DNA from: a virus | Length of the DNA: 43,658 bases | IMG/VR virus record: IMGVR_UViG_3300028610_003302 | Span: 1 to 43,658 of that record | Reading direction: 5' to 3' (one strand) | Notes under the pieces: model-generated | The model's database searches: none | The model's input: only the letters and a program-made list of their open reading frames with translations | What the model was told of the DNA's origin: nothing | Part shown: positions 12,043 to 41,959 of the stretch, piece by piece | Numbering within the stretch: position 1 is the stretch's first letter | Layout of the letters: the number at the start of each line of letters is the position of its first letter | Made by a program: the position numbers and the translations under genes

Positions 12043-12077
12043 TAAAATTTAGGTAATTTTTGGAATAAGGGTATTTT
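12029..12077. repeat. 49-bp duplicated promoter plus start region, copy 1
   Basis: This stretch matches 14326-14374 with one mismatch. It contains the class B box, the TTG start and the first codons of the hub gene. Confidence 0.85.
12062..12075 (-). promoter_or_regulatory. Class B promoter box
   Basis: The minus strand reads AATACCCTTATTCC. The TTATT core is 24 nt from the TTG at 12042. Confidence 0.6.
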
Positions 12078-14339: not shown

Positions 14340-14374
14340 TAAAATTTAGGTGATTTTTGGAATAAGGGTATTTT
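14326..14374. repeat. 49-bp duplicated promoter plus start region, copy 2
   Basis: Matches 12029-12077 with one mismatch; includes the class B box and the TTG start at 14339. Confidence 0.85.
14359..14372 (-). promoter_or_regulatory. Class B promoter box
   Basis: The minus strand reads AATACCCTTATTCC, core 24 nt from the TTG at 14339. Confidence 0.6.
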
Positions 14375-19291: not shown

Positions 19292-19309
19292 GATTAAAAA
19301 TACGTTTTT

Positions 19310-19323
19310 GGAATAAGGGTATT
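19310..19323 (-). promoter_or_regulatory. Class B promoter box
   Basis: The minus strand reads AATACCCTTATTCC, core 23 nt from the ATG at 19291. Confidence 0.6.
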
Positions 19324-23691: not shown

Positions 23692-24894
23692 TTAGACTTC
23701 GTAGCTAGTAATCTTAAAAGCACCTTCAGGATGTGCTTGTTTAATATCTATTCGTACAACTAAATCAGATTGATAAAGTCCACCCACCGAGAGATCAAAG
23801 TTTTCAATAGTAAGGTCTTCCCTTAATCCAGTTACAAGTGCAATATCTCTCTTAGTGATCATTACTGTTCCAGCAGGAATTTGTGGCGTTTCCCAGACTG
23901 CTCTTAGACCAAGTGATTGTGCTAATCCAGAATTGTTAATTACATCTGTGTCATCAGTTGGTCCCAACTCAAATCTGTTAAAGAACGGATAGAAACCACC
24001 AGTTGATGCAGTCTTTACAGTTAGTGCTGCATCTGATGGATTGATAAACATGGTGTCTGCGCGGTTACGCAAAGTACCTGGGAATCTTGAACGAATAACT
24101 TCTACTAATGCTTCTAGTTCTTCTTGTACAGGAGTTGCATTTGCAAGTGTTGCTTTTGTTGCAGTGTTAACTGTAGTTGCAGTAACTAGCGTATCAATTA
24201 TTTCTTTACCAATCATAAAGTAAAATTCGTTTCCTGCGTTCTTGAGCGATTGTTCAACGGACAAAAAATTGTTGTCTTTCACGTCGTTTCTGTTTACAGA
24301 AATAGTTCCGCGAAATGAATTGTTTGTACCACTTGTATCAAGTTCAACTGTTTCAATTTTTCCGCCAATTGCTGGCGGAATTCCGCCTGCTTCTTTATAG
24401 ATGGAGAGTCCTTTCTGATCAGTAGGTGAACCGCCAACGGTGTCGGTATATTTTGTAATTGGAACATTAACTTTTGGAGAATCCATATCAATCAATCTTG
24501 AATATTGCTTCCAGTCGCTCCAGGGCTCTGCTCCCTCGAGTATCTCATCTGCAATTTTTAATGCAGACAATGAGTTTGGAACTGAAACTGTTTCTTTGAG
24601 ATCCTTTCCACCAATTCTCATGTTGCCTTTGGCCTCATCACCTATTCTGATATTGTAGCGATGTTTCCAGATTGTAGGTAAGTTTGGATTTATTCTGCCT
24701 TCCTCAAATCCATTAGGATGAGTTCTATCAAAGAATACTGAAAGTGGTGTTTCTCTGATTGGTCTAAATATATCAAATGGTTGTCCTGATCTTTGCTGTG
24801 CTTCTGCACTGGCAATTAATGCCTCTTGGACATGTGCCATCTCGTTTAATTGTAAAATAGATTGCCTGTTGTGTTTTGGTCGTCCAGTAGCCAT
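23692..24894 (-). CDS. Major capsid protein, HK97-fold candidate (400 aa)
   Basis: Length and layout fit an HK97-type capsid protein: a helical, Gln/Glu-rich N-terminus (LQLNEMAHVQEALIASAEAQ), then an elongated E-loop-like strand region with TIWKHRYNIRIGDEAKGNMR, a spine-helix region (VEQSLKNAGNEFYFMIGKEI), a P-domain/A-domain part with MFINPSDAALTVKTASTGGF and ELGPTDDTDVINNSGLAQSL, and a closing strand VVRIDIKQAHPEGAFKITSY. It sits between a decoration-like gene (2 nt upstream) and small head genes, downstream of scaffold and protease genes, the canonical order. ATG 24894 is in a transcript led by the class A box at 25539. I see no unusual insertion. Identity is inferred from order, size and strand pattern rather than a unique motif. 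Confidence 0.75.
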   Translation of the reverse strand: MATGRPKHNRQSILQLNEMAHVQEALIASAEAQQRSGQPFDIFRPIRETPLSVFFDRTHPNGFEEGRINPNLPTIWKHRYNIRIGDEAKGNMRIGGKDLKETVSVPNSLSALKIADEILEGAEPWSDWKQYSRLIDMDSPKVNVPITKYTDTVGGSPTDQKGLSIYKEAGGIPPAIGGKIETVELDTSGTNNSFRGTISVNRNDVKDNNFLSVEQSLKNAGNEFYFMIGKEIIDTLVTATTVNTATKATLANATPVQEELEALVEVIRSRFPGTLRNRADTMFINPSDAALTVKTASTGGFYPFFNRFELGPTDDTDVINNSGLAQSLGLRAVWETPQIPAGTVMITKRDIALVTGLREDLTIENFDLSVGGLYQSDLVVRIDIKQAHPEGAFKITSYEV

Positions 24895-26961: not shown

Positions 26962-27270
26962 ATGACAACTGCTACTACATCACCATTTCACATTAGCACA
27001 GATAAAACTGCATACACATCTACGGAGGATGTAATTGTTACTGCATCAATTAAGGGATGGTATCCAGGTCCTGACGGAAAAGCAAGATTGGTAATTTGGA
27101 TAAAGGGAACTGGTATGCATGTAGCTGATGAGTATGTTACAAAACCTGCAAGTGGTGATACTGTAAAATGGACAGTTCCAGCTTCTGCATTTGCTAATTA
27201 TATTGGAGATACTTTTGATGCACAGTTAGAATTTGGTAGTTTACATGCAGATACTACATTTACTCACTAG
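26962..27270 (+). CDS. Single Ig-like/MG2-type beta-sandwich protein (102 aa)
   Basis: The only plus-strand gene within the structural block. HISTDKTAYTSTEDVIVTAS is the opening of an MG2- or bacterial Ig-like domain; later strands are ARLVIWIKGTGMHVADEYVT, DTVKWTVPASAF and FDAQLEFGSLHADTTF. No signal peptide or membrane helix. The frame reads back to TTG 26941, but ATG 26962 fits the class A box and the sequence. Its TAG stop shares the CTAG with the stop of the convergent MuF/protease gene. Domains of this type are common in secreted thaumarchaeal proteins, so it may be captured host sequence acting as a capsid decoration, but that is inference. Confidence 0.65.
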   Translation: MTTATTSPFHISTDKTAYTSTEDVIVTASIKGWYPGPDGKARLVIWIKGTGMHVADEYVTKPASGDTVKWTVPASAFANYIGDTFDAQLEFGSLHADTTFTH

Positions 27271-29357
27271 AGAATTTCTATTTTTGTAAATTTAATTCCA
27301 GGCTCAGCTGATGGTACAAAGTGACCATCCCAGTATATCCCTCTAGGATCAGTTACAACAAAAGTCATTCCAATCCCATCTAATTCACCCAACACCACAC
27401 CCTTTGGAACCAAACACAACTCACAGTCATCTTCAGTACATTTGTGATCACATTGCTCTACAGTTTCTGAGCGTGGCATACCGCCATTAATTGATACAGC
27501 AGTAATTTTTTTATCATCAATTGCATCATTAATTGTGTCATCTCGAACTATTACAAGCATCTGAATCTCTTTTCTATACTTGTCAAACTCTGCATCAAGT
27601 ATAGTTGCATCTACTTCAAACTCTGGCTGATGATTGATATCCATGCTTTTTCCAATCGCAGTACGAGTCATAGAGTTTAGCTCTTCTGCTGAAAGTTTTC
27701 TTTTGTATGGTTCTCCCTCAGAGCGGTGATCAGTGATTGTTTCACCTGCTGCTCGTATCAAATATAGTATTCCACCAGAATCATATGCCAGTTCTCGTGC
27801 CTTTGTGATATAGTCCTCAGTCAACCAGTCAAATTGCGAGCGAAGATTTGCAATGCTTTCTTGTAATAATTTTCTAGTCAATCTGCCTTTTGGCAACTCC
27901 AAACGAATTTGGGGCATCTTCATTGATGAAAGCTTGATAGCTTGACATGCACAAATTTCCTTTAGCGGGTTTTTCTTTGTAGTTTTTTTATCTAGCTTGC
28001 CGTCTTTTTTTACCTTGTGTAGTGTACCGTCTTTTGCTGCTTTGTTAATGTGGTTTTCAATGGAATGAATATCTGATTCTTCTTTTCTTGAAAGTGAATC
28101 ACCTGCTCCCTTGTATTTTGGTACAACTTTCCAACTACATTTGCAGTTTGGATGCGTTGTAGTGTATCCCAGATTCTCACTTGGAATTACTGGCCTGTTG
28201 TGAGTTTCCAACAAGTTGAATCTTTTTCCACTGTATGGGGCGCACTCATCATCATTGTCATGTCCGTGATACTCGTATTCTGCAAATATTTCTAGAGACT
28301 CATCAGGTTCTAGAGCATCTAATATTTTATCAATTCCTATTACACCACCAAGTAAGATAGCCCACTTTAGCAGCAAGTCACGAAGTTTATTTTTCTTGTC
28401 TTCTTTTTTTGCTTCAAGCAGATATTTTTTTTGTGGTTCTACGTGAGTTAGTAATTTTGTATAATATTTTGGGTCTTCTTTGAGATGGTCTTGTGCAATT
28501 TGTTTTGCAAGATTTCTGTCACTAGTATGCTCTAATTCAATTTCAATGCCTGCTTGGAGTTGTTTTGAATCATCAGTTTCAGCTAATGGATTTGTTCCGC
28601 TTGGAGGAATTACAATGTCGGGAATTTTTAATGGATACATTTGGGAATCCTCAATAGGATATCGCCATTCAGGAATTGCCTTTGCTACATTGAATCCATG
28701 TTCTCCATGCATTGATGGTTCAGAATTTACTTTATTTGCAGTTGCACTCCAGTTTGTATCATCGCCAGGATACGGTGGGTTTAGCACATCATAAACATTT
28801 GACAGTGAACCAATACTGTTAGGATCAGGGCTAAGAAATGATTGGTATGGCTGTGTTGAGCTTCCAATTCCATATGGTGATTTGTTTGGTGTGGGGTATG
28901 GCTGCACATCATCTGGCAGTCCTGCAAAATTTGTAGTTGGCTCTCCAGTATCTGGAACTATCACATTATTTACTCTACCTGCAATATCAACTCCAGTGAC
29001 TGGTCCTGGCCAAGGTTGTGCATATGGCGGTTCAGGTTCTGAAAAATATGCAATGACTGCTCTGTGAACTTCTTCTTCAGGAATTCCGCGAGATAATAAT
29101 TCATGCTCCATCTGGATTGCTTTTTGTGCAACATCACCAGTTGTAGTTTCTACCATAAATCCTGGTTTGTAGTTTACCTCAAGCTTGTTGTATTTTGGTT
29201 CTACATCAGTATCAATTGGTTGTGGATTCCCATATGCGTGCAAGTCACATGTGTCTTTTGCCTTTATCTGTCCCTTTACTAGTTCACACAAACCGCCTGC
29301 AACAAAGTGTTTGCAGTTACCACATAACGATGACCTAGTATTTTGGTTCTTTGACAT
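27267..29357 (-). CDS. MuF-like head protein fused to prohead protease (696 aa)
   Basis: The N-terminus has a four-Cys cluster (C12, C15, C24, C37: SLCGNCKHFVAGGLCEL, DTCDLH). Residues about 360-410 show the MuF end pattern: DDECAPYSGKRFNL, then TTHPNCKCSWKVVP. The C-terminal 250 residues look like a prohead protease: a helix (YITKARELAYDSGG), the histidine in SMDINHQPEFEVDA (H576), and the serine in ITAVSINGG (S622), spaced as in S78/U35-type proteases (His then Ser in VSIxG); XkdF-like proteins combine a similar Cys head and protease. The start ATG overlaps the previous gene by 23 nt. It probably enters the prohead with DNA-ejection functions and cleaves scaffold and capsid proteins. Catalytic residues are predicted, not tested. 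Confidence 0.65.
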   Translation of the reverse strand: MSKNQNTRSSLCGNCKHFVAGGLCELVKGQIKAKDTCDLHAYGNPQPIDTDVEPKYNKLEVNYKPGFMVETTTGDVAQKAIQMEHELLSRGIPEEEVHRAVIAYFSEPEPPYAQPWPGPVTGVDIAGRVNNVIVPDTGEPTTNFAGLPDDVQPYPTPNKSPYGIGSSTQPYQSFLSPDPNSIGSLSNVYDVLNPPYPGDDTNWSATANKVNSEPSMHGEHGFNVAKAIPEWRYPIEDSQMYPLKIPDIVIPPSGTNPLAETDDSKQLQAGIEIELEHTSDRNLAKQIAQDHLKEDPKYYTKLLTHVEPQKKYLLEAKKEDKKNKLRDLLLKWAILLGGVIGIDKILDALEPDESLEIFAEYEYHGHDNDDECAPYSGKRFNLLETHNRPVIPSENLGYTTTHPNCKCSWKVVPKYKGAGDSLSRKEESDIHSIENHINKAAKDGTLHKVKKDGKLDKKTTKKNPLKEICACQAIKLSSMKMPQIRLELPKGRLTRKLLQESIANLRSQFDWLTEDYITKARELAYDSGGILYLIRAAGETITDHRSEGEPYKRKLSAEELNSMTRTAIGKSMDINHQPEFEVDATILDAEFDKYRKEIQMLVIVRDDTINDAIDDKKITAVSINGGMPRSETVEQCDHKCTEDDCELCLVPKGVVLGELDGIGMTFVVTDPRGIYWDGHFVPSAEPGIKFTKIEIL

Positions 29358-29676: not shown

Positions 29677-29696
29677 AAAGTTTAGCTTGTTTTTAG

Positions 29697-29708
29697 GTTA
29701 AAGGTATT
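29697..29708 (-). promoter_or_regulatory. Class A promoter box
   Basis: The minus strand reads AATACCTTTAAC, core 24 nt from the GTG at 29676. Confidence 0.6.
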
Positions 29709-29726: not shown

Positions 29727-30083
29727 TTAATCAATGAATACTATTATTCTATCACCACATTCTGGGCATTGCGGTTTATTTTTTGAGAGGGGAGCATACG
29801 GATTTTTTTTGGTGTGAAATTTGTTTTTACACATCATACATTTGACATTAGGTTGTCGTTTTGGATTTCTTCTATTTTGTCTTATTTTATTTAATTTTTT
29901 ATCATTTGAATAATAATGAACCAAACTGGTAGAATTATTTCTTTTTTGATTCTTGTGATGCCTATCTAATGATGTAGCTCTTTCTTGTAGGATATTTTTT
30001 TGATAATTTAATTTTCTTTGTTTTTTTATCTTTTCTTTATTTTTTTGATAGTAGGACTTTCGTGTAGTGGTATAGGTATTCAA
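29727..30083 (-). CDS. Basic zinc-ribbon protein (118 aa)
   Basis: The N-terminal 75 residues are extremely Lys/Arg/Asn-rich (KNKEKIKKQRKLNYQKN), the C-terminus is a zinc ribbon, VKCMMCKNKFHTKKN and QCPECGDRIIVF. It pairs with the 46-aa protein at 301-441 by the shared CKNxFxxxKNP and KPxCxxCGxR pattern. A DNA- or RNA-binding role is likely. The start is TTG 30083, the only candidate in frame; no class A or B box is at the right distance, so it may be read through from the S-layer gene or use the TTTTAAAA at about 30086. It lies between the S-layer and head genes. Confidence 0.5.
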   Translation of the reverse strand: MNTYTTTRKSYYQKNKEKIKKQRKLNYQKNILQERATSLDRHHKNQKRNNSTSLVHYYSNDKKLNKIRQNRRNPKRQPNVKCMMCKNKFHTKKNPYAPLSKNKPQCPECGDRIIVFID

Positions 30084-30089
30084 GGTTTT

Positions 30090-30109
30090 AAAAAAAAGAA
30101 AAAAGGGGG
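30090..30109 (-). terminator. Poly-U terminator after the S-layer gene
   Basis: On the minus strand a C-run is followed by a T-tract with a single C interruption, starting about 17 nt past the S-layer stop. T-tracts of this kind terminate archaeal transcription. The downstream zinc-ribbon gene starts only 6 nt after it. Confidence 0.5.
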
Positions 30110-30125
30110 AAATGTGAACTAGTTT

Positions 30126-33100
30126 CTAACTTACGTTGACAGTTGTGCTAATTGGTGGTGACAATGCAGTAGGATTATCTACTGATTCCCAAACAAATGC
30201 AGTAACAGTGTATGTTCCTGATTCTTCGGGAATCCATGATAATGCTGGGCTGAATTGTTGACCCTCAACTAATGTTCCTGTAATCCATGCTAATGAAACG
30301 GTAACACCGCTATCATTTTGAACCTGTACTAAATATGCAAACTCCTGAACTCTATCCTGACCATTACTCAAGTCAGCACCAATCTGTACCTGTTGGTCAA
30401 CAGAAACAGTACTTATACTGTTTTTGAAGGCATCCATTGTTCTCAAGTTAGCAGCTGGTGCTCTCTCGAGAGGTGGTACTAGAGTGCCAATTAGTGTAGT
30501 GGCAGTAATAGCAAGTTCATCGGATGTATTATACGGAGCAGGCAATGTATTGTCCAGATATTTAGCAGTGACAGTATCACCTTCTGAAACTCTAAGTCGA
30601 CCACCAGAAGAACTATCAGTTACTGTGAAGAACACAGTTCCCTCAAATATTCCAGTTGCCTCATTAGTCTCAGTTACAGTAAGTTCGATACCTCCAGCAT
30701 CCGAGTCAGAATAGACTTGGATCTTAAAGTTATCTACTGATTCTGGATTCAAGTTCATGTCAGGATCAATTGTTCTGATTACACCTGTACCGCTTGCTGG
30801 ATAGCTTGCTTCAAGCCACTGAACTTCACCTACATTCCATCTAATAAGTGCTGAACCGACTACAGTTTTACCATCAGTAGACTCAAATGATACGGAAAGT
30901 CCGTCATCATCTTTAGCCTCTAGATAGCCACCTGTTGGTCCATTACCTCTGGATCTAGGGTCAGTATCATATCCATTTGTGCCAGTACTAGCATCTCCAT
31001 CTGCATCATGTCTGAATCCAGTAAGAATTACTTCACCTGTAAAGATACCCGTATCAGTTCCAGTTTCAACCAATTTGTATTGGTCAAGATCACCAGTTCT
31101 AGTACTAATATCTACAGAATTGTCCTTACTATTACCGATTTCGTCAACGGCATTGGAGTCAAAGTTGTGATCAGGGGATACTATAGTGATGTATACCTTA
31201 TCAGTCCATGAGTAAACTTTTTGGTCAAGTTCGACAGTTGCGCCAAAGTTGGATGTAAATATTGTTAATGATACATCTTCATCTTCGTCACCAACAAACT
31301 TTGCACCAGAAGGTCCCCAATCAACGTATTCTAAATCAATTATCTCACCACGTTCTAGTTGAGTACCATCAAGATGTGATGGCATTTCGGCTACTACTTG
31401 GAAGATTCCAGTAGAGTCACCTGTCTCTCTAAAAGCGGAAGGTTCTGGATCGAATGCGTTGTTTAAGTCACCTTGTTTACCCATTGTTACCTTACTTGCA
31501 TCAGAATCCCATTCAATGAGATCTAATGAGATAGTTTCTGCTTGATCATTATCCAAATCAAAGTCTGGTTCAATAAGGGTCATGATCATATCAGAACCTA
31601 TAATGTACACAGATTTGTCGGATTGCAAAACACCGTTTCTAAGGTCAAATGTTGCAGAATCAGTGATAGAGTTTAGATCACCTGAAGCATCAGTTGGATC
31701 AATGTATTCTACTTGGAGAATATCTCCTTGTATGATACAATAATTTTCGCTGTTGCTTGTAGGAGTATTAAATCTATTTGATTCGTTATTACCTGAACCT
31801 AGTAGGTTTTCAAATACTGTAGTTTTTGGACATTCAGTACTTGAAGGACCATCAGTGTATCTGATTGTCATATCAATCTCAAAGATACCAGCATCTGGAG
31901 CAACTTCTTTCATTGGTCCTAATGTTTTGATATCATTTGCAGCATTATTACCAACTGAGATTAAACCATCATTTGCGGTTTTACCTCCAGCAGTTGCCAA
32001 TATTACTTTTTCAGATCCTCTTATGACTGAAACAGTTACAGGTGAATTATCTAGAGCAATGTCATCGGAACCATTTGCAGAAAGATCAAAGTCTGGATCG
32101 TTTACTCTAATGTGAACTTTAAGATCACCATTAGTGAGATATTTTCCTTTTGCTCCAAGATTATTATTGATAGATGTATCATGGATTGGGAAAATAGATC
32201 TGTTGTTTGGTCCAGATTCTTGTGATGTTTCAGTTATTCCAAAGTCTTTTGGAATACCAAATGGAACTGGATAGACACTTCTATCCAAACTAACACTACC
32301 TGTGTTAGAACCAATTGCTGCTGAGTCACCTACTTCAATTATTTCACCAGATGCATCTCTGAAATCAATATAGTCAACCGTAATATCAAGTCCTGATACT
32401 GGTGTAACTATTCCACCTACATCACAATAATTTTGTGGGATTTGGAAATTACCTACAAATACACCAGAGTCTTTTTTGGTTTCTCTGAGTGTAAAGTTAG
32501 TATCTTCAAATCCTAAATTACATGATCCTGTGGCGTTCCAGAGTTTGTCTGCAAATTTAATCTCAAGTAAATTTCCTAAATTTGAATTTTTGTCACTGAG
32601 TAATACTTTATCACCTACAATGCTTGTACCTTGTGCTATTTTGTAGATTTGTAAAGTATTAGTATCAGTATTCAAATCAGAATCCTCAAGAGTAACATTC
32701 ACAGTATCACCAACTTTGTAATTGGTGTCATCAAATGTGATTTTACCACTGTGAGATGGTGCTGATACTTGATCAGATTGTGTTCCTATTGTACCAGTTC
32801 CCTCTAGATCTAGATAATTTACTCGAACATCATCTTCGTCTGTGAGATCTTCATGAGCAATGATTACTAAATCTTGATCAAGGGTGGTAATTTTTGCATA
32901 TGTAGCAGCTTGTCCAACATTAATTTGGTTTAGCATTACATATTCAAGACTACCTTGGAATACACCAGAACTTTTTGTGGTTTCTTCAGGCAACATTCTG
33001 TATATAGCGTCATTGTATCTTTTGTCTCCGTCAACACCGAATCTTAGGATATCCAATACCATTGGTGCTTTCTCTTGTGCAGTGAAAGCAGAACTACCAA

Positions 33101-34784
33101 TTACTTGAATCTTCAAATCACCGCCAATATTAGTTGGCAATAATGATTGTGTATCAAGTCTAATAAATCCCGATGGGGATGCATCTTTTACAAGATCATG
33201 TAAAGGATGTCCAGTACTATTAGCGATAGCAATGGTTATTCTTTTATCGGTAAGGGATGTAAAGTCATAGTTAACATATGTGAATACATATGGTGCTATG
33301 TCTCCACCATCAGCAAACGTATAGAAGTCTGAATACGCATAAGCGTAATCAAACGTCAATGTATCTACAGTTGCTCCAGTTACATTTGCAATGTATCTGT
33401 CACTGAACTGTTCTACATAGGTTGTTGGTGATGTGTGAGAGTTTTTCAAGAATTCAAAAGTGATTGGTTCACCAATCTTTACTGTTGGAAGAATAGAGTT
33501 TGAATCAGTAATTTTTGCCAATTCTTCTATTCTTGTATTCTTGTTTACATCTTGATCTATGATATCAACTTTAATTTGCTCACCAGATTGCCATTCATCA
33601 TCAGGTTCTATGATATTTACAGTTGCATCAAAATTATCGATTAGAATTGATTGTTCTGAATCATTATAATCAATAGTTGAAGCTGTACCTCTCAAAGCTG
33701 TTGATAAGGTTTCAAAGTTTGCCTTGTTTCCAGAATCAGTATTTTCAAAAACACCTGTATTGACAGATGTTTCTGTAAAAGTGATTTGGTGGTTAACGGC
33801 AGTATTTCCTGATAATTTTTGATCATCATTATCTACAACTTTGACGTTATCTTGTGGATCAATTATTAGTTTACCATTTTGTTCAAAGTTCAAGCTTGAC
33901 TTGAGTGAATCAAACAAATTAGCGTTATCTGAGACTCTGGTTAATAATCTGTCATAGTATTGATAGTATGTTGCATCTGTACCAGTTCCATTAAATGTCC
34001 AACTATCTTCTGATGTTGGATCAATGTTTAACATTTGATCATTTAATACCAAATGAATGGAAGCTGATTTTGGATACGAATCTCTATCAAGGTTTAATGC
34101 AACTTGATCAGAATTGTCATCAGTGTACTTTAATACACTTTCTTGAGGACTTCCTGCTGCCCTATATACAATATTAACATCACCTTTTACGGTAAAGTCA
34201 AATGTTTGAATAAAAGGCCAGTTGATTTCATTAAAACCTAAGTGTTGACCTGTATGATTACCTGATGGATCACTTAATGCTTTTGCAGAACGAACTACAT
34301 TGTTGATGTTATCATTAACATCAATTGCAGTATTTGGGAAATAGACACCAGCACTTTCAAAGTTTAGTGTACCGATTGCAGTTCCACTAACTATGTAAGG
34401 TGTACCAAAATCCAAACCAGTACCAGCACCAGCAACAGTTACTGTTGCATCTGCTGCATCTGCCATTTTCTTATCTGCAATATATGCATACCAATTTCCA
34501 TCAGTACCTTGCATCATTCTTAGATCTTCACCGTTTACTGTAACGGTTGGTTCTCCTTTGAGTTCATTAGTTTCTCCGATGTTTCTGTCAGCGACAACAA
34601 CTTCTACGACCATAGGGCCAGCAAAAGTATTATCAAAGGCAGAATCTTCGACTGAGACAAACAAGTTAGAATTGGTGGCAGCCATTGCGGGTTCCATTCC
34701 TTGGAAGGCAACAGTCATTCCACCAGCTAACATTATTGTCATTAGCGTTAGACTAGTTATTTTTCGTTGTGTTTCGTTATTCAT
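30126..34784 (-). CDS. S-layer protein homologue of Nitrosopumilus type (1552 aa)
   Basis: A signal peptide (KITSLTLMTIMLAGGMTVAF, cleavage after AMA at residue 35) leads into ATNSNLFVSVEDSAFDNTF and VNGEDLRMMQGTDGNWYAYI. This closely resembles my recollection of the N. maritimus S-layer protein (Nmar_1547), including the motif DGNWYxYxAD. The body is a string of Ig-like domains marked by about eight copies of ExxxxTGIFxGxV (for example VETGTDTGIFTGEV). Acidic segments (DPDFDLSANGSDD, DPDMNLNPES) look calcium-binding. The C-terminal domain (SLAWITGTLVEGQQFSPALS, TVTAFVWES) lacks a membrane helix. At 1552 aa it is shorter than the ~1700 aa host protein. It lies between portal and MuF genes on the same strand, with a class A-like box of its own. 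It may replace or remodel the host lattice, mask the virion, or block superinfection. Confidence 0.85.
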   Translation of the reverse strand: MNNETQRKITSLTLMTIMLAGGMTVAFQGMEPAMAATNSNLFVSVEDSAFDNTFAGPMVVEVVVADRNIGETNELKGEPTVTVNGEDLRMMQGTDGNWYAYIADKKMADAADATVTVAGAGTGLDFGTPYIVSGTAIGTLNFESAGVYFPNTAIDVNDNINNVVRSAKALSDPSGNHTGQHLGFNEINWPFIQTFDFTVKGDVNIVYRAAGSPQESVLKYTDDNSDQVALNLDRDSYPKSASIHLVLNDQMLNIDPTSEDSWTFNGTGTDATYYQYYDRLLTRVSDNANLFDSLKSSLNFEQNGKLIIDPQDNVKVVDNDDQKLSGNTAVNHQITFTETSVNTGVFENTDSGNKANFETLSTALRGTASTIDYNDSEQSILIDNFDATVNIIEPDDEWQSGEQIKVDIIDQDVNKNTRIEELAKITDSNSILPTVKIGEPITFEFLKNSHTSPTTYVEQFSDRYIANVTGATVDTLTFDYAYAYSDFYTFADGGDIAPYVFTYVNYDFTSLTDKRITIAIANSTGHPLHDLVKDASPSGFIRLDTQSLLPTNIGGDLKIQVIGSSAFTAQEKAPMVLDILRFGVDGDKRYNDAIYRMLPEETTKSSGVFQGSLEYVMLNQINVGQAATYAKITTLDQDLVIIAHEDLTDEDDVRVNYLDLEGTGTIGTQSDQVSAPSHSGKITFDDTNYKVGDTVNVTLEDSDLNTDTNTLQIYKIAQGTSIVGDKVLLSDKNSNLGNLLEIKFADKLWNATGSCNLGFEDTNFTLRETKKDSGVFVGNFQIPQNYCDVGGIVTPVSGLDITVDYIDFRDASGEIIEVGDSAAIGSNTGSVSLDRSVYPVPFGIPKDFGITETSQESGPNNRSIFPIHDTSINNNLGAKGKYLTNGDLKVHIRVNDPDFDLSANGSDDIALDNSPVTVSVIRGSEKVILATAGGKTANDGLISVGNNAANDIKTLGPMKEVAPDAGIFEIDMTIRYTDGPSSTECPKTTVFENLLGSGNNESNRFNTPTSNSENYCIIQGDILQVEYIDPTDASGDLNSITDSATFDLRNGVLQSDKSVYIIGSDMIMTLIEPDFDLDNDQAETISLDLIEWDSDASKVTMGKQGDLNNAFDPEPSAFRETGDSTGIFQVVAEMPSHLDGTQLERGEIIDLEYVDWGPSGAKFVGDEDEDVSLTIFTSNFGATVELDQKVYSWTDKVYITIVSPDHNFDSNAVDEIGNSKDNSVDISTRTGDLDQYKLVETGTDTGIFTGEVILTGFRHDADGDASTGTNGYDTDPRSRGNGPTGGYLEAKDDDGLSVSFESTDGKTVVGSALIRWNVGEVQWLEASYPASGTGVIRTIDPDMNLNPESVDNFKIQVYSDSDAGGIELTVTETNEATGIFEGTVFFTVTDSSSGGRLRVSEGDTVTAKYLDNTLPAPYNTSDELAITATTLIGTLVPPLERAPAANLRTMDAFKNSISTVSVDQQVQIGADLSNGQDRVQEFAYLVQVQNDSGVTVSLAWITGTLVEGQQFSPALSWIPEESGTYTVTAFVWESVDNPTALSPPISTTVNVS

Positions 34785-34810: not shown

Positions 34811-34823
34811 ATATTTAAGGTAT
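34811..34823 (-). promoter_or_regulatory. Class A-like promoter of the S-layer gene
   Basis: The minus strand reads ATATACCTTAAAT, a variant of the class A box. Its core is about 31 nt from the ATG, implying a leader of about 7 nt. Upstream, the minus strand has GGGATTAATCG and GGACTAATCG about 20 nt apart, a possible operator repeat. Confidence 0.5.
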
Positions 34824-34855
34824 ATGGACGATTAGTCCTTTTTGGGTATGATCGA

Positions 34856-35143
34856 TTAATCCCACATTATTTTTAGTTGATTTTTATAGCCTAATAAGAT
34901 GTGCCATTTTGGAGCATATTTGTGTTCAGTTGATGGGTCTTGTACTCCTCTGGGCCACATGTCATAATTGTTGTAAAAATCCCAAGTCGTATTTGCAGTA
35001 TATGATAAAATATTTCCACATGTGATACCATCAGTTGATGTAGTAAATGTGAAATTGTCATTTGTAGTTGCAGTACCATTCCACCAAGTAGGAAATTGAC
35101 TATCATAAGTGCCATCATAATTATTATTGTTATTATTACTCAT
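34856..35143 (-). CDS. Small portal-linked protein (95 aa)
   Basis: ATG 35143 overlaps the end of the portal gene by 8 nt; the frame is open further upstream but that part lies inside the portal gene. The protein starts MSNNNNNNYDGTYD, continues with FPTWWNGTATTNDNFTFTTS, and ends KWHILLGYKNQLKIMWD. It is rich in Asn, Thr and aromatic residues, strand-like, with one cysteine. I do not recognise it. Tight coupling to the portal suggests a head or neck component. It is the last gene before the S-layer promoter. Confidence 0.55.
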   Translation of the reverse strand: MSNNNNNNYDGTYDSQFPTWWNGTATTNDNFTFTTSTDGITCGNILSYTANTTWDFYNNYDMWPRGVQDPSTEHKYAPKWHILLGYKNQLKIMWD

Positions 35144-36830
35144 AGTCTCGTCCCCAGTTCCAATCTTGAGATTGGTTTGATTGTCTGTAATTTGTTGGCA
35201 CAAATGGATTGCCACTTCCTCTAACATCACGCATCATAGAATCATACATTGGGTTATCCATTGGAGGAGAACCCATCACTTGATCATTAAAAACAGGACC
35301 GCCTCCAATATCAGCAGTTGGGAGATACTGCCCGTCTGCTGTTTTGTTTGGCGGTGTAATTATTCCTCCACCCTCTACTCCTCCTTGGTTTATTGTTGCA
35401 TTGCCAAGTGCTAACTGGTTGTGTGGATCATTGTACTGGTTATCTACTGTCACTAAATAATCTTCGTCTATTGGAAGTCCTGCCTGCTCAAATAATTTGA
35501 GAATTTGTTTTGGATCTTTTGGCATTGGGGACTGCAAGTATAGTTCAATTAGTTTTATCATGTCTTGTACTGCAACATCTTTTTTCTCTACTTGTCCAAA
35601 GTTTACATCAAAGCGAGTTATATGCCAAGGAACTGGAATCATTCCACCATAATAATTAACATCAAAGAATGGATGTGAATCATACCAAGGCTTGAATAGT
35701 AATTCGTTTAGTTGCTCTCGTACAGAAATTGGAAATGCAGTTAATCCAAGCTCATCTAACAATGCTGCGCGTTCAGCATTTGCAAATGTATGAGTGGATA
35801 CTCCAGCTTGTTTTCCTCTAAAATCATTTAGTGCCTTGAATAGTGGACCTTGTGTAATATCTGCAAACTGACTTGGATTGAAATTTCTAGCCTGTGATCC
35901 TAGTTCTTTAATCTCAACGTTTGTTCCAGAAATTATGTCTTGTCCAATTTGGGCTGACTCTATGTTTGCTTGTAACGCTGCTCTTTGATCAGCTGATGCG
36001 CCATCTGCTATCCATACGTTTCGACTTATGTAACGCTGCTCTGCCATCTGCATTTGGAATTGTGTAGAATATTTTCTATCAAGCATTGATGGCAACTCAA
36101 CATCAACAGAGTCCTCACCGTTTAGTGGCATTGTAAAATTACGAGTTGATGTTACAGATACACCAAAGCCCGTACCAAATGGTGATGCGTTAACTGGATT
36201 CCATTTGAAATGCATTACCTCTGATGGATTAAAATAACCTTGATACTCTGGACCACGAAATTCTAATTTGTATGGCACTCTTTGTCTGTCTGTCCATATT
36301 CTTTGAAACGATGAGATTGGAATATGTAAAAGGTCAGAAAATCGCTCAACGTTACGAATCCCCATTCTAGGTTTCCAAACAGAATTACCATACCACAACA
36401 TCTCCTTTACTAGTTCTGTATCAAAAGTATCAAAGCGAAGATTTTTTGTAAAGTCCTCCATGTACTCTATGAAACTCTCACTATCTCCTTTGATGTAGTG
36501 CTGACCTCCCGTAACTTTTGATGCCAAATCATTAATTGCAAGCTGTACATCCTCGTCTTGTTGCAATGCTACAGCTTGAGCATCAAATCTCACTGATGGT
36601 ACAAAGAAAGTTTTTGATGTATAGCCTTCCCGACTATATGCTCCAATTGTTGAAATTTCAGGTCCCCAAACTGGCTGAGATAAACCTGGCACCATTTCAG
36701 ATAATAAAGAACTGTTCATTGTATCTTTGACTAAATTTATGTTTAGTGACTTTGTGTAGTGTCTGGGCGAATTAGTTTCACTTGAAAGAAGCTGTGCTAA
36801 ACCGTTTCGTAATCTGGTACCAAATCCCAT
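35136..36830 (-). CDS. Portal protein (564 aa)
   Basis: Residues about 90-160 (DVQLAINDLASKVTGGQHYI, VKEMLWYGNSVWKPRMG) and 180-215 (FRGPEYQGYFNPSEVMHFKW, NPVNASPFGTGFG) are typical of HK97/SPP1-type portals: the stem-side helix, the xxPSEVMHF motif and the PxGxG turn. A long helical stem region follows, with ERAALLDELGLTAFPISVRE near residue 350, and a proline/glutamine-rich C-terminus with QLALGNATINQGGVEGGG. Length is usual for the family. The ATG at 36830 is 24-25 nt from the class A box at 36852. Being a twelve-subunit ring at the head vertex, it docks with the terminase at 39005 and the connector at 20890. Confident from motifs and position. Confidence 0.85.
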   Translation of the reverse strand: MGFGTRLRNGLAQLLSSETNSPRHYTKSLNINLVKDTMNSSLLSEMVPGLSQPVWGPEISTIGAYSREGYTSKTFFVPSVRFDAQAVALQQDEDVQLAINDLASKVTGGQHYIKGDSESFIEYMEDFTKNLRFDTFDTELVKEMLWYGNSVWKPRMGIRNVERFSDLLHIPISSFQRIWTDRQRVPYKLEFRGPEYQGYFNPSEVMHFKWNPVNASPFGTGFGVSVTSTRNFTMPLNGEDSVDVELPSMLDRKYSTQFQMQMAEQRYISRNVWIADGASADQRAALQANIESAQIGQDIISGTNVEIKELGSQARNFNPSQFADITQGPLFKALNDFRGKQAGVSTHTFANAERAALLDELGLTAFPISVREQLNELLFKPWYDSHPFFDVNYYGGMIPVPWHITRFDVNFGQVEKKDVAVQDMIKLIELYLQSPMPKDPKQILKLFEQAGLPIDEDYLVTVDNQYNDPHNQLALGNATINQGGVEGGGIITPPNKTADGQYLPTADIGGGPVFNDQVMGSPPMDNPMYDSMMRDVRGSGNPFVPTNYRQSNQSQDWNWGRDYE

Positions 36831-36878: not shown

Positions 36879-38309
36879 CTACGGAGTTCCAAAGTTTGCC
36901 TCAAAATTTAAAGTAAAATCAATATTAGAAAACGCCTCGACTCGATGGTTTAGTGTGTTTGCTGCAAGAACATAACTTGCTCCATCTGTAAAAGCAGATA
37001 CTGATTCAGGATAGTAAATCTGACCATCACCAGTTCCAGGAGTTGTATTAGTAGTATTATTAATAGTGGTACCATCTATTGTTTTTATAATATTATTTCT
37101 CGTATCTGCAAATACTGTATCAGTAGCTGCTAATATCCCATGTCCACTTGATGGGAAGAATAAATCAGTCCCAGTAGTTCCAGGTGTTCCATGTTGAACA
37201 ACAAAATTAGTAGCAGTGATATCATATTGGTTAATTATACTTCTTGCAGAATCAGTTACTTGGAAAAGATTAGGGCTTGAATCAAATATTACTCCATGAG
37301 GTCTGACAAAAGATAGAGGAGTTGGAGCAGGTAAAACTTGAGGTGATGAAGGTGTAGCACCAACACTATATCGTACAGCTCTGTGATTTAGCTCATCTGC
37401 AATAACTAAAAAAGTCAAAGCATCATCTACAGCAATTCCTGCTGGACGGTAAAAGTTTGAAGTACCAAAGCCACCACTTCCTACTGAAGCAATAAATGCA
37501 CCATCAGCTATAGCTAGTGTTCTAATTCGATCATGAAAAGTATCAGTTACAACTAGTCTAGTACCATCAAAGACAATTCCTGATGGACGATACAAGTTAT
37601 TATCAGTTGGACCGCCATCGCCAATAGGACCACCTTGGCCAGTTGTACCATCTCCGTTATTTCCCCAAGGAACAATAGTAGCTGCTGCTGTAACAGATGC
37701 ATCATTACTATTTCCTGAAGTACCAATAACTGTTACAGTTGGAGTTGCATTAGTATATCCATTTCCATTGCTAACAAGTGTAACTGCTGTTAAGAGAGTA
37801 CCATTAGTTGTTGCAGTTCCAGTTGCCAATGATTTTCCAGGAGGAGCATCAATGACAACTTCAGGGGCTGCACCAGCAGTTGAAACATATGAAGAACCTT
37901 GATTTGTTACTGTTATGCTTGTAACAATTCCATCAATTAGATTGGCAGTTGCAGTAGCCCCAGAACCTGTTACTGAAACAATTGATACATTAGGTGGAGT
38001 TGTATAACCTGAACCGCCATTAGTTACAGTAATTGTAGTAACATTCCCAGCAGAAACAGTTGCATTTGCAATAGATGTTCCAGCAGGACCTTCAATTACC
38101 AATAATGCATTTACATAACCACTAGTACCTCCGTTTGCAAGAGTTAGACTTGTAACATTTCCATCAGCAAGTGAGAAATTAAAAAAGCCAGGTGTATAAA
38201 CCCATTTTGAAATTCTATGATTAAATTGCTCTGCAACATAGACTGCATCATTAGCAACATCAAAGGCAATATCAGATGGTCGATACATCTTACCAGCTTG
38301 AAGTGTCAT
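36879..38309 (-). CDS. NHL-repeat beta-propeller protein with inserted GxGY repeats (476 aa)
   Basis: Blade motifs of an NHL propeller recur: MYRPSDIAFDVANDAVYVAE and QFNHRISKW, LYRPSGIVFDGTRLVVTDTF, FYRPAGIAVDDALTFLVIAD with ELNHRAVRY, FVRPHGVIFDSSPN, then FFPSSGHGILAATDTVFAD and a final LNHRVEAFSN. Between the first blade and the second, residues about 41-212 are four GxGY-type repeats (GGSGYTTPPNVSIVS, NGNGYTNATPTVTVIG and two divergent). The frame is open to TTG 38330, but that codon lies inside the class A box; ATG 38309 is 23-24 nt from the box and begins just before the first blade. No signal peptide. It lies directly upstream of the portal and may be a virion or host-contact protein; NHL domains bind proteins, glycans or RNA. 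Confidence 0.7.
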   Translation of the reverse strand: MTLQAGKMYRPSDIAFDVANDAVYVAEQFNHRISKWVYTPGFFNFSLADGNVTSLTLANGGTSGYVNALLVIEGPAGTSIANATVSAGNVTTITVTNGGSGYTTPPNVSIVSVTGSGATATANLIDGIVTSITVTNQGSSYVSTAGAAPEVVIDAPPGKSLATGTATTNGTLLTAVTLVSNGNGYTNATPTVTVIGTSGNSNDASVTAAATIVPWGNNGDGTTGQGGPIGDGGPTDNNLYRPSGIVFDGTRLVVTDTFHDRIRTLAIADGAFIASVGSGGFGTSNFYRPAGIAVDDALTFLVIADELNHRAVRYSVGATPSSPQVLPAPTPLSFVRPHGVIFDSSPNLFQVTDSARSIINQYDITATNFVVQHGTPGTTGTDLFFPSSGHGILAATDTVFADTRNNIIKTIDGTTINNTTNTTPGTGDGQIYYPESVSAFTDGASYVLAANTLNHRVEAFSNIDFTLNFEANFGTP

Positions 38310-38329
38310 GAATTTAGAGGGATTTCTCA

Positions 38330-38341
38330 ATTAAAGGTATT
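38330..38341 (-). promoter_or_regulatory. Class A promoter box
   Basis: The minus strand reads AATACCTTTAAT, 23-24 nt from the ATG at 38309. Its position excludes the TTG at 38330 as start. Confidence 0.65.
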
Positions 38342-38673: not shown

Positions 38674-38687
38674 AATACCCTTATTCC
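38674..38687 (+). promoter_or_regulatory. Class B promoter box, plus strand (terminase)
   Basis: AATACCCTTATTCC, core 24 nt from the TTG at 38707. It is the only plus-strand class B box. Confidence 0.65.
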
Positions 38688-38706
38688 AAAAAAAAGTTTC
38701 TAGCTG

Positions 38707-39004: not shown

Positions 39005-40804
39005 TTGGCTGATTCATTTGAGAAAAAGCTAGAAGACATTGAGAAAAAAGTTTCACCGCCTAAAATAAAATCAGGAATCACTCAGCTACCAACTGATCAT
39101 CTGGAATGGATTAAAGTTGCTCGTCCCTATGTTGGAAAGATAAAGCGAACCTTTGAGTGGGAACCATTCTGGGTTGCTGTTTACGAAGATAAATCACCGA
39201 ATATCGTTGTCGTTAATGGCCGTCAAAGTTTTAAAAGTACATTTGGTACGGATATCATCGGTTGCTACGCAACTAGTCATGCTAACTCTGAGGTCACATA
39301 TATAGTTGACAGGGAAGACCGTGTTTCTGCATGGTCTAAACAGAGATTTCGTAAAGATACAATGCTGCGAAATGAACTGTTATCTCCATTTTTAATGCAT
39401 GGAAGAGCAAACGTTGGAGAAATTAATCTTACAAACAATTCTGTAATTTATGTCAGAACTGATGAGAACGAATTCAACAACGTTCAGGGGATGACAAATA
39501 GTTTAATGGTATTTGATGAATGCCAGTATCAAGAATTACAGTTTCGAGCAGCAGCACTATACTCAATGACTATGACTAAGGGACAGTGTTACTATTTGGG
39601 AATTGGTGGAGAAGCTGGTTCTGAATGGTACAAGTTGTGGAAAAAGTCAGACCAAAGAGAATGGAGGTTTGATGATAAATACTGGAGGGAGAAATTAAAG
39701 TTTGATGAGGATGGGTATCTTGCAAATGAGCATCCAGAAAATATTGTTGCAGGAAAATGGGTTGCAGCATATCCTGAAAACAAAGAGTATCGAGGATACC
39801 ACATGCCACAAACAATCTTTGCAAGAATTCCATTAACGATACAAGATGCAGTCAATCTTTACAAGACAAGACCTGAGAATTCCATAGAGTTTCAAGAAAA
39901 ATACAATCCTACAAGTATAGTGCAAGCTCACGTATATGGAAATTTCTTCAAGGCAATGCGCAGACCAATTACACCAGAAATGGTTGAGGCTTGCTATGAC
40001 TATACCCTTACACTGTTAACTCCAGAACAAATAAACGAATTAAAACAAAAACATGGAAAAGAAGTTTTAATATTTTTAGGAATTGATTGGGGTTCGGGTC
40101 CAGCAGCATCAAAGACTGTTGGAACTGTAATTATTTACTGGCGAAAGACAAATCGTTATCAGATTGCATGGATTGATTCTAGACCGCAAGAACACGAGTA
40201 TGATCAGGCTACATACTTTGTTAAACTATACAACGAGTATTGCTGTGACTTTTGTGTAGCTGACTTGGGGTATGGTAAGGACAAAGTAACCATGATGCAA
40301 AACGGTGGTTACACATCATTTGGTGAAAAAGTTACAGGACTAGGGAGAGGACGAGTCAAGGGATGCTGGACTTCAGGCAACATAACTACAGAAACTATGA
40401 GGCACAAAAACCAGGATATTATAGATGCGCCAACTGTAGGTGAAAAAAAAGAATTTTACTCAGTAGATAAGACTCAGGTAATTCAGAACTTTATTGACTT
40501 TGTTGGCAGTAAGGTTCCAAATGGGAATGGCAAACAGGTGTCCCAGCTAATAATTCCAATGAAAAACGATTGGGAGTGTGACTTTTTGGTTAATGACTTT
40601 TGTGATATTACAAGAAAAGATCTAGATAAGACAAATATGGAGATTAGCAAAGATGACCCCAGACAAAAAGCCAAGAAAGAATACAATCACCCAAAGGATG
40701 TAGTTATGGCAATTATTTACTGCATGATTGGTAAACAAAAGTATGACCCACAAGGATTTCAAATATCTAAAATCAGAGCTAACAGACGGTTCAGATATAA
40801 TTGA
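39005..40804 (+). CDS. terL: Terminase large subunit (599 aa)
   Basis: The ATPase part has a Walker A motif NGRQSFKST (residues 71-79), with the K/S/T of the P-loop, and Walker B SLMVFDECQ (166-173), with Asp171 and Glu172. The nuclease part has IFLGIDWGSG (Asp361), FCVADLGYGKD (Asp420) and HPKDVVMAI (Asp565), the three-acid RNase H-like site typical of the family. Length is usual. The start is TTG 39005, 1 nt after the small gene. It packages DNA into the prohead via the portal at 35136. The gene ends 3 nt from the convergent minus-strand gene. All essential motifs are intact, so the virus or provirus looks functional at this step. Confidence 0.95.
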   Translation: MADSFEKKLEDIEKKVSPPKIKSGITQLPTDHLEWIKVARPYVGKIKRTFEWEPFWVAVYEDKSPNIVVVNGRQSFKSTFGTDIIGCYATSHANSEVTYIVDREDRVSAWSKQRFRKDTMLRNELLSPFLMHGRANVGEINLTNNSVIYVRTDENEFNNVQGMTNSLMVFDECQYQELQFRAAALYSMTMTKGQCYYLGIGGEAGSEWYKLWKKSDQREWRFDDKYWREKLKFDEDGYLANEHPENIVAGKWVAAYPENKEYRGYHMPQTIFARIPLTIQDAVNLYKTRPENSIEFQEKYNPTSIVQAHVYGNFFKAMRRPITPEMVEACYDYTLTLLTPEQINELKQKHGKEVLIFLGIDWGSGPAASKTVGTVIIYWRKTNRYQIAWIDSRPQEHEYDQATYFVKLYNEYCCDFCVADLGYGKDKVTMMQNGGYTSFGEKVTGLGRGRVKGCWTSGNITTETMRHKNQDIIDAPTVGEKKEFYSVDKTQVIQNFIDFVGSKVPNGNGKQVSQLIIPMKNDWECDFLVNDFCDITRKDLDKTNMEISKDDPRQKAKKEYNHPKDVVMAIIYCMIGKQKYDPQGFQISKIRANRRFRYN

Positions 40805-41281: not shown

Positions 41282-41600
41282 CTAGATTGATTCCATGTTC
41301 AGTTAGATAGTCATATGAGAACTTTGCAGCAGACGGATATGTTTTTTTTATCTCGTCAGTTTTTTTGTCAATTTCATATTTGTTAATTATTTTTTTTAAA
41401 ATCTCAATTAGCAGATTTTTATTATATGGATCTGCTCGCTTCCATGTTACAAAAAGAGAATAAACAAATCCACCTCCTCCAGTATCTAGCTTGAATTCGC
41501 CAATTGGATGTTGAGAATTTTCATACATCATGCAAAGTCCAACTATATCCTCAATGATGATAAACTGTTGCATTGGATCATATTTTTCCCAGAAAATCAT
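41274..41600 (-). CDS. Hypothetical protein (108 aa)
   Basis: Starts with an amphipathic helix region (QFIIIEDIVGLCMMYENSQH), then EFKLDTGGGGFVYSLFVTWK, and a Lys-rich C-terminal helix (LLIEILKKIINKYEIDKK). No family recognised. The GGGGFVYS loop between strands is notable but is not a known nucleotide-binding motif. The ATG at 41600 overlaps the stop of the TIR-like gene by 4 nt (ATGA), which argues for coupled translation. It probably acts with its operon neighbours; no separate role can be named. Confidence 0.6.
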   Translation of the reverse strand: MIFWEKYDPMQQFIIIEDIVGLCMMYENSQHPIGEFKLDTGGGGFVYSLFVTWKRADPYNKNLLIEILKKIINKYEIDKKTDEIKKTYPSAAKFSYDYLTEHGINLVD

Positions 41601-41959
41601 TGCATCTTCTGGGTTTTTGCAATTGTTGCAAGCATTTTCCTCAAACCAATCAAAGTTATAGGTGATAGTTCATCACCTGTTTTTGTGTAATCATAAAGGA
41701 TTCCACATAGGTTGGGATAGTTTAGAATGGATTTGTCTTTAATATTATCAGGTAAAATATTTCTAAAAATGTAAATCATTGGCTTGCCCAAATCAACTGC
41801 ATGTTGATATTCTTCTTGTGTTTGCTTGTCATCAAACCAGCTCTTTGATATGACAATGACTGCAACATTTGTTTTATCTAATGCACGTAATGCTCCTTTT
41901 GGATCATGATCATAGTCACTTGACTTTGTTACATGTAGTTCAACATCTTTATCTTTCAT
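41597..41959 (-). CDS. TIR-like domain protein, N-terminally short (120 aa)
   Basis: The core matches the second half of a TIR domain: a strand with VELHVTKSS, then LDKTNVAVIVISKSWFDDKQ and TQEEYQHAVDLGKPMIYIFR, followed by further strand and helix to LRKMLATIAKTQKMQ. The S-x-S-W and the EEYQHA (in place of WCxxEL) resemble the catalytic helix, with Glu as the probable NAD-binding acid. The first strand and helix of a normal 140-residue TIR (the FISY part) are missing; the ATG at 41959 overlaps the upstream stop, so the shortness is real rather than a start error. It may be a truncated, inactive or antagonistic TIR, or a divergent Rossmann-like fold. The assignment is by pattern, not search. 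Confidence 0.5.
   Translation of the reverse strand: MKDKDVELHVTKSSDYDHDPKGALRALDKTNVAVIVISKSWFDDKQTQEEYQHAVDLGKPMIYIFRNILPDNIKDKSILNYPNLCGILYDYTKTGDELSPITLIGLRKMLATIAKTQKMQ

Follow-up and report, generated by a model that had tools for sequence, protein, structure and literature searches.

Why should a viral genome carry, among the genes for its own head, a gene for the wall protein of an ammonia-oxidising archaeon? The question is raised by a 43,658-bp IMG/VR contig that has no terminal repeats, analysed here over its whole length (the window). Along the minus strand, the gene for a beta-propeller protein is followed by the portal gene, a small ORF overlapping the portal gene, the S-layer gene, and a 118-aa ORF, and then by a 113-aa ORF and genes for MuF-like, probable scaffold/protease, decoration-like, and likely capsid proteins (Table 1). 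The names portal, MuF, and scaffold derive from gene order and known motifs, with no strong family match behind them. None of 250 Nitrosopumilaceae (cellular) genomes searched contains a relative of the portal gene; a relative of the S-layer gene is present in 229 of the 250.

An earlier note had described a 1552-aa ORF with a signal peptide and repeats between the portal and MuF genes and on the same strand, and had likened its N-terminus to the Nitrosopumilus S-layer protein (Nmar_1547). The ORF is as described, the shared strand being minus, and contains no internal stops. Its likeness to the S-layer protein reaches far beyond the N-terminus: phmmer aligns it to the N. maritimus S-layer protein (NmSLP; PDB 8c8k) with 1462 bits and E = 0, in three stretches that span residues 1-1552 with a gap at about 445-499, a short variable stretch. 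The homology is full-length and not limited to generic Ig-like repeats. These repeats are marked by ET...[TS]G[IV]F-like motifs, of which the protein has seven; after shuffling of its sequence the mean number is 0.02. The signal peptide is of the host type (MNNE..RKITSLTLMTIMLAGG), and the first 36 residues align with those of cellular copies. An AlphaFold2 model of residues 37-620 (mean pLDDT 65) matched 8c8r in Foldseek with E 1.2e-34 and gave a TM-score of 0.73 over 8c8n; NmSLP structures were the only strong PDB matches. The window ORF is a full-length homologue of NmSLP, both by sequence and by predicted fold. Its product contains 10.1% aspartate, has a net charge of -141, and at 3.6% lysine lies above the cellular copies compared. 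No Pfam or PHROGs match to the protein itself was found, nor any relative among 50,697 phage records or in a plasmid collection, and BFVD gave no good match.

Table 1. Features of the S-layer locus and of flanking viral genes, in window coordinates.
Feature	Position	Strand	Remark
Virus-borne S-layer protein gene, 1552 aa, signal peptide, Ig-like array	30126-34784	-	ATG at 34784, stop at 30126
Host-type palindromic S-layer promoter element GGACTAATCGTCC	34826-34838	-	Position and spacing as host GTGGACAATTCGTCCATTA
TATA-like box CCTTAAATA of S-layer promoter	34812-34820	-	Matches host S-layer promoters
Host-type S-layer terminator AACTAGTTCACATTTCCCCCTTTTTTCTTTTTTTT	30090-30124	-	Near-identical sequence 3' of cellular S-layer stop codons
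118-aa basic zinc-ribbon-like ORF	29727-30083	-	Travels with S-layer gene in four viruses
Viral promoter box AATACCTTTAACCTAAAAACA of next gene	29688-29708	-	Far edge of insert; conserved in G016 empty site
Small ORF overlapping portal end	34856-35230	-	Its stop is the near edge of the insert
Portal protein, flanking viral gene	35136-36830	-	Named from place and conservation in 17/22 related contigs
MuF-like head protein, flanking viral gene	27267-29357	-	
Likely major capsid protein	23692-24894	-	Weak PHROG match, E 0.0057
Terminase large subunit, viral hallmark	39005-40804	+	PHROG 675, E 7.9e-30

Promoter, terminator, and insertion site

The gene had previously been assigned a class A-like viral promoter box, an assignment that does not hold. 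The window contains ten copies of the true viral box, AATACCTTTAA, against 0.05 expected, and the S-layer promoter is not one of these. Upstream of the S-layer gene lie instead GGACTAATCGTCC and CCTTAAATA, and their spacing to the ATG is close to that in cellular S-layer genes, which carry GTGGACAATTCGTCCATTAG and then CTTAAATAC upstream; the combined palindrome and TATA pattern has one match in the window with none expected. We therefore rejected a viral promoter in favour of the host S-layer promoter.

The palindromic element was found in 24 of 61 genomes searched, at one or two per genome, and where its position was compared it lay just before the S-layer gene in cellular genomes. The palindrome GTGGACAANTNGTYCATTA of Nitrosopumilaceae genomes (e.g. 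G023:C6:39796-39814) is probably the operator of a dedicated regulator. Among the viral contigs that carry the gene, the window and G001 have a perfect palindrome, G002 and G273 an imperfect one. Both arms are altered in G001 (GAACTAATGGTTC) with the palindrome retained, and the same double change occurs in one cellular genome. A terminator near-identical to AACTAGTTCACATTTCCCCCTTTTTTCTTTTTTTT follows every viral copy with a complete end, and the codon usage of the S-layer gene correlates with that of host S-layer genes at r = 0.96, against 0.91 with that of the virus. By these sequence elements, the virus has the complete transcription unit of the host S-layer gene, including the palindromic promoter element, TATA box, and terminator.

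This unit sits between genes that adjoin in close relatives. G016, the closest of them (portal 93%), has neither the S-layer gene nor the 118-aa ORF, and the stop of its small ORF and AATACCTTTAACCTAAAAACA of the next gene are only a few hundred bases apart. The S-layer gene was found in two of 22 related contigs, several of the 22 being fragments, and is absent from contigs in which the site can be seen, among them G016, G003, G004, and G008. The statement that the gene is embedded in the virion-assembly cluster is thus accurate for the window and two relatives, but the gene is not fixed there: close relatives are without it, and other lineages carry it elsewhere. That close relatives do without the gene suggests that it may be dispensable for virion formation.

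The 118-aa ORF lies 3' of the S-layer gene in the window, G001, and G002, and was not found in relatives without the S-layer gene. It belongs to no clear family and has no close viral relatives beyond these genomes and G273, where it is shortened. At the same insertion site, contig G012 (L052; 2166-5906 of the reversed record) encodes a different secreted protein, of 1246 aa and with repeats, on the opposite strand, which makes the stretch between the portal and MuF genes look like a hotspot for cargo encoding surface proteins.

Distribution and descent of the viral copies

The portals of G001 and G002 are 85-88% identical to that of the window, and both contigs carry the S-layer gene at the same site. 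G273 (51,665 bp) has an exact 144-bp terminal repeat and is therefore probably complete. It represents another virus lineage, with tail proteins 30-40% identical and its own terminase, and its S-layer gene, followed by the shortened 118-aa ORF, lies at a different genome position. Further copies came from cellular bins. The records L005/L164 (G122:C59, LFLC01000054.1) and L165 (G122:C27), binned as Nitrosopumilus LS_AOA, belong to a tailed virus that itself has an S-layer gene. One LS_AOA contig (L005) holds a primase, a terminase, and an S-layer gene, and a second, read along the coding strand, opens with the C-terminus of an S-layer protein, after which come portal-like, scaffold-like, decoration-like, and capsid-like genes. 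We infer that these two viral contigs join; the chromosomal S-layer gene, flanked by its usual cellular neighbours, lies on a third, and the C-terminus common to the viral and chromosomal copies seems to have broken the assembly. The S-layer gene of this tailed virus retains the host terminator. The 6.5-kb contig L002 is without cellular neighbours, and the chromosomal S-layer gene of the same bin lies elsewhere; we count L002 as a mobile contig, its viral status not being established. By sequence, the gene is present in at least three virus lineages.

That the gene is an assembly chimera or a piece of host DNA is hardly credible and was rejected: these are metagenome contigs, and S-layer genes are repeats able to break assemblies, as in the LS_AOA case, but independent contigs share the junctions (the window and two relatives), the complete genome G273 has terminal repeats, host neighbour genes are absent next to the viral gene, and the window sequence has diverged to about 51% full-length identity with the nearest cellular copy.

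The viral copies and the two mobile contigs, L005 and L002, form one clade apart from the chromosomal S-layer genes, supported in both halves of the protein (95/87 in the N-terminal tree and 98/94 in the C-terminal tree). The cellular names in the tree first hinted that each virus had taken up the gene separately from cells. This was dropped after examination of the two 'cellular' clade members because the L005 contig carries a primase and a terminase, and L002 is without cellular neighbours. Viral S-layer copies are under purifying selection, with dN/dS about 0.2 (0.19-0.29 among viral copies against 0.18-0.19 among host copies). The synonymous divergence of the S-layer gene among the window, G001, and G002 resembles that of the portal and capsid genes, and the gene is therefore an old resident. 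G002 and G273 are distantly related viruses, but their S-layer genes (dS 0.54) are closer than those of G002 and the window (0.95), which points to transfer between virus lineages or to repeated uptake from related cells. On the portal tree, S-layer presence requires two changes. Given the portal- and capsid-like divergence, one gain with later losses is plausible, though a single vertical origin is unproven.

Mean viral-host identity is 0.80-0.83 in residues 1001-1552, which, according to the published NmSLP structure, include the membrane-side part, against 0.20-0.45 in residues 37-700. The viral copies thus keep the signal peptide and the membrane-side half and have diverged in the outer half. 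Host copies also vary most outside (0.27-0.75 in residues 37-700 against 0.86-0.91 in 1001-1552), so outer divergence alone is no proof of a changed role. A long insert follows NmSLP residue ~515 in five of the six viral or mobile copies (G001, G002, G273, L005, and L002), where the window copy has a short linker. In the one copy modelled, that of G002, the insert is predicted to form a pair of helices, about 56 and 51 residues long, and the block pLDDT is mostly 76-90. Domain 4 of NmSLP, described as projecting outward from domain 3, probably lies near the insert position. All viral copies are strongly acidic, with net charges of -141 to -219 that fall inside the host range, and the acidic C-terminal half is kept.

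The viral gene resembles that of NmSLP (Nmar_1547, PDB 8c8k-8c8r) in full-length homology, signal peptide, Ig-like array, acidity, promoter element, and terminator. It differs in being virus-encoded, in its separate clade, diverged outer half, and insert in five of six copies, and in having the 118-aa ORF downstream in place of the cellular neighbours.

Possible roles of the viral S-layer protein

Phage morons can bring about superinfection exclusion through a change of the cell surface, as in serotype-converting phages or with Llp of phage T5. Like phage morons, the S-layer gene is a self-contained transcription unit between conserved virion genes, absent in close relatives, with a predicted cell-surface product. 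Unlike serotype-converting phages and T5 Llp, it would supply a version of the main wall protein rather than modify a sugar or block a single receptor.

We lean towards the reading that the gene is an S-layer moron, that tailed viruses of ammonia-oxidising archaea captured a host S-layer transcription unit, and that it now forms a virus-specific lineage that re-faces the lattice of the infected cell. During infection, host machinery would transcribe the viral gene like the cell's own, and the product would be secreted via its signal peptide and enter the growing lattice through its conserved domains. The outer face of the infected cell would then be replaced by the viral version, and receptor or glycan sites would be lost or masked, both for rival virions and for the virus's own progeny at release. 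We infer lattice entry and function, and the altered face probably changes the virus receptor. HFTV1, a tailed virus of archaea, uses an S-layer protein as its receptor (PMC9973310), so a change in the outer face could plausibly alter how other virions, or progeny, adsorb. Re-coating with superinfection exclusion, as suggested in the earlier note, is still the best hypothesis for these sequences; an inner half that is conserved, an outer half that has diverged, and the presence of inserts support it indirectly. Against it stand the lack of a helical insert in the window copy, the imperfect palindromes of G002 and G273, and the finding that preinfection with HFTV1 gives no exclusion of its own attachment (PMC9973310). 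A further proposal, which we regard as possible but would not yet call probable, is that viruses of ammonia-oxidising archaea keep and trade their own S-layer lineage, some members bearing long helical spikes, and that in infection these convert the ammonium-sieving coat of the host into a virus-specified one that excludes rivals.

The main rival to re-facing of the coat is envelope maintenance, comparable to the role of an auxiliary metabolic gene (AMG): a viral supply of S-layer protein would keep the wall and its ammonium-concentrating layer intact until progeny are made. The retained host promoter is consistent with this, as are the acidity of the viral copies and of their C-terminal half, given that the N. 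maritimus S-layer is described in PMC11153153 as a cation and ammonium sieve with a charge gradient. We nevertheless consider maintenance unlikely, since an identical host protein would serve equally and since it leaves the outer-half divergence, the inserts, and the patchy presence unexplained.

It is more doubtful still that the protein aids egress by weakening or opening the S-layer at release. The viral outer domains are shorter, and large inserts could disturb packing, but purifying selection throughout the conserved half, together with host-like regulation, suggests that the lattice protein works, and no viral promoter box is present at the gene. The suggestion in the earlier note that the protein decorates virions, or its extension to receptor binding, draws on the position of the gene between the portal and MuF genes in three genomes, and fares slightly worse. 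The retained host signal peptide would export the protein, whereas heads assemble inside; the promoter is of host and not viral type; the closest relative and others with the same head genes are without the gene; and in G273 and the LS_AOA virus it occupies other genome positions. A captured host gene with no function for the virus is very improbable, although close relatives manage without it, because four viral genomes hold intact ORFs with dN/dS about 0.2, several virus lineages carry the gene, and its synonymous divergence is as old as that of the portal and capsid genes.

The open-access literature, to which the search was confined, yielded no virus reported to encode a homologue of its host's cellular S-layer protein. 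The nearest precedents there are an annotation and a legend entry. The OM43 methylophage Melnitz has a putative S-layer-type protein for which the same superinfection hypothesis was raised (PMC9004378), but Melnitz is a bacterial phage, the assignment is annotation only, and phage records hold no match to the window protein. The other is an SLP that contains an immunoglobulin domain and belongs to a cryptic integrated thaumarchaeal element, listed only in the figure 6 legend of PMC6563490. It is likewise an S-layer-type protein on thaumarchaeal mobile DNA, but the element is not a virus. Exclusion of rivals by a virus-specified coat, if true, would be superinfection exclusion through wall replacement, a form that did not turn up in the literature searched. 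The S-layer is the entire outer wall of these archaea, both the surface that viruses contact and the ammonium-gathering sieve for a main nitrogen-cycle step. If viruses rewrite it in infection, then virus competition, cell-surface evolution, and nitrification become linked, and questions about the receptor of thaumarchaeal tailed viruses, the fast-varying outer domains of S-layer proteins, and the regulator that reads the palindrome become testable.

Other features of the window

A second promoter-like box, AATACCCTTATTCCAAAAA, unlike AATACCTTTAA, lies upstream of tail genes (12057-12075, 14354-14372, 19305-19323, and 38674-38692) and possibly marks another temporal class. The NHL/beta-propeller protein encoded at 36879-38330, adjoining the portal gene, is duplicated in the relatives G003 and G004. 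A small ORF at 41597-41959 has a weak TIR-like match (E 0.018). Finally, positions 2-319 encode a secreted FG-GAP-repeat protein, another host-like surface protein, cut off by the contig end.
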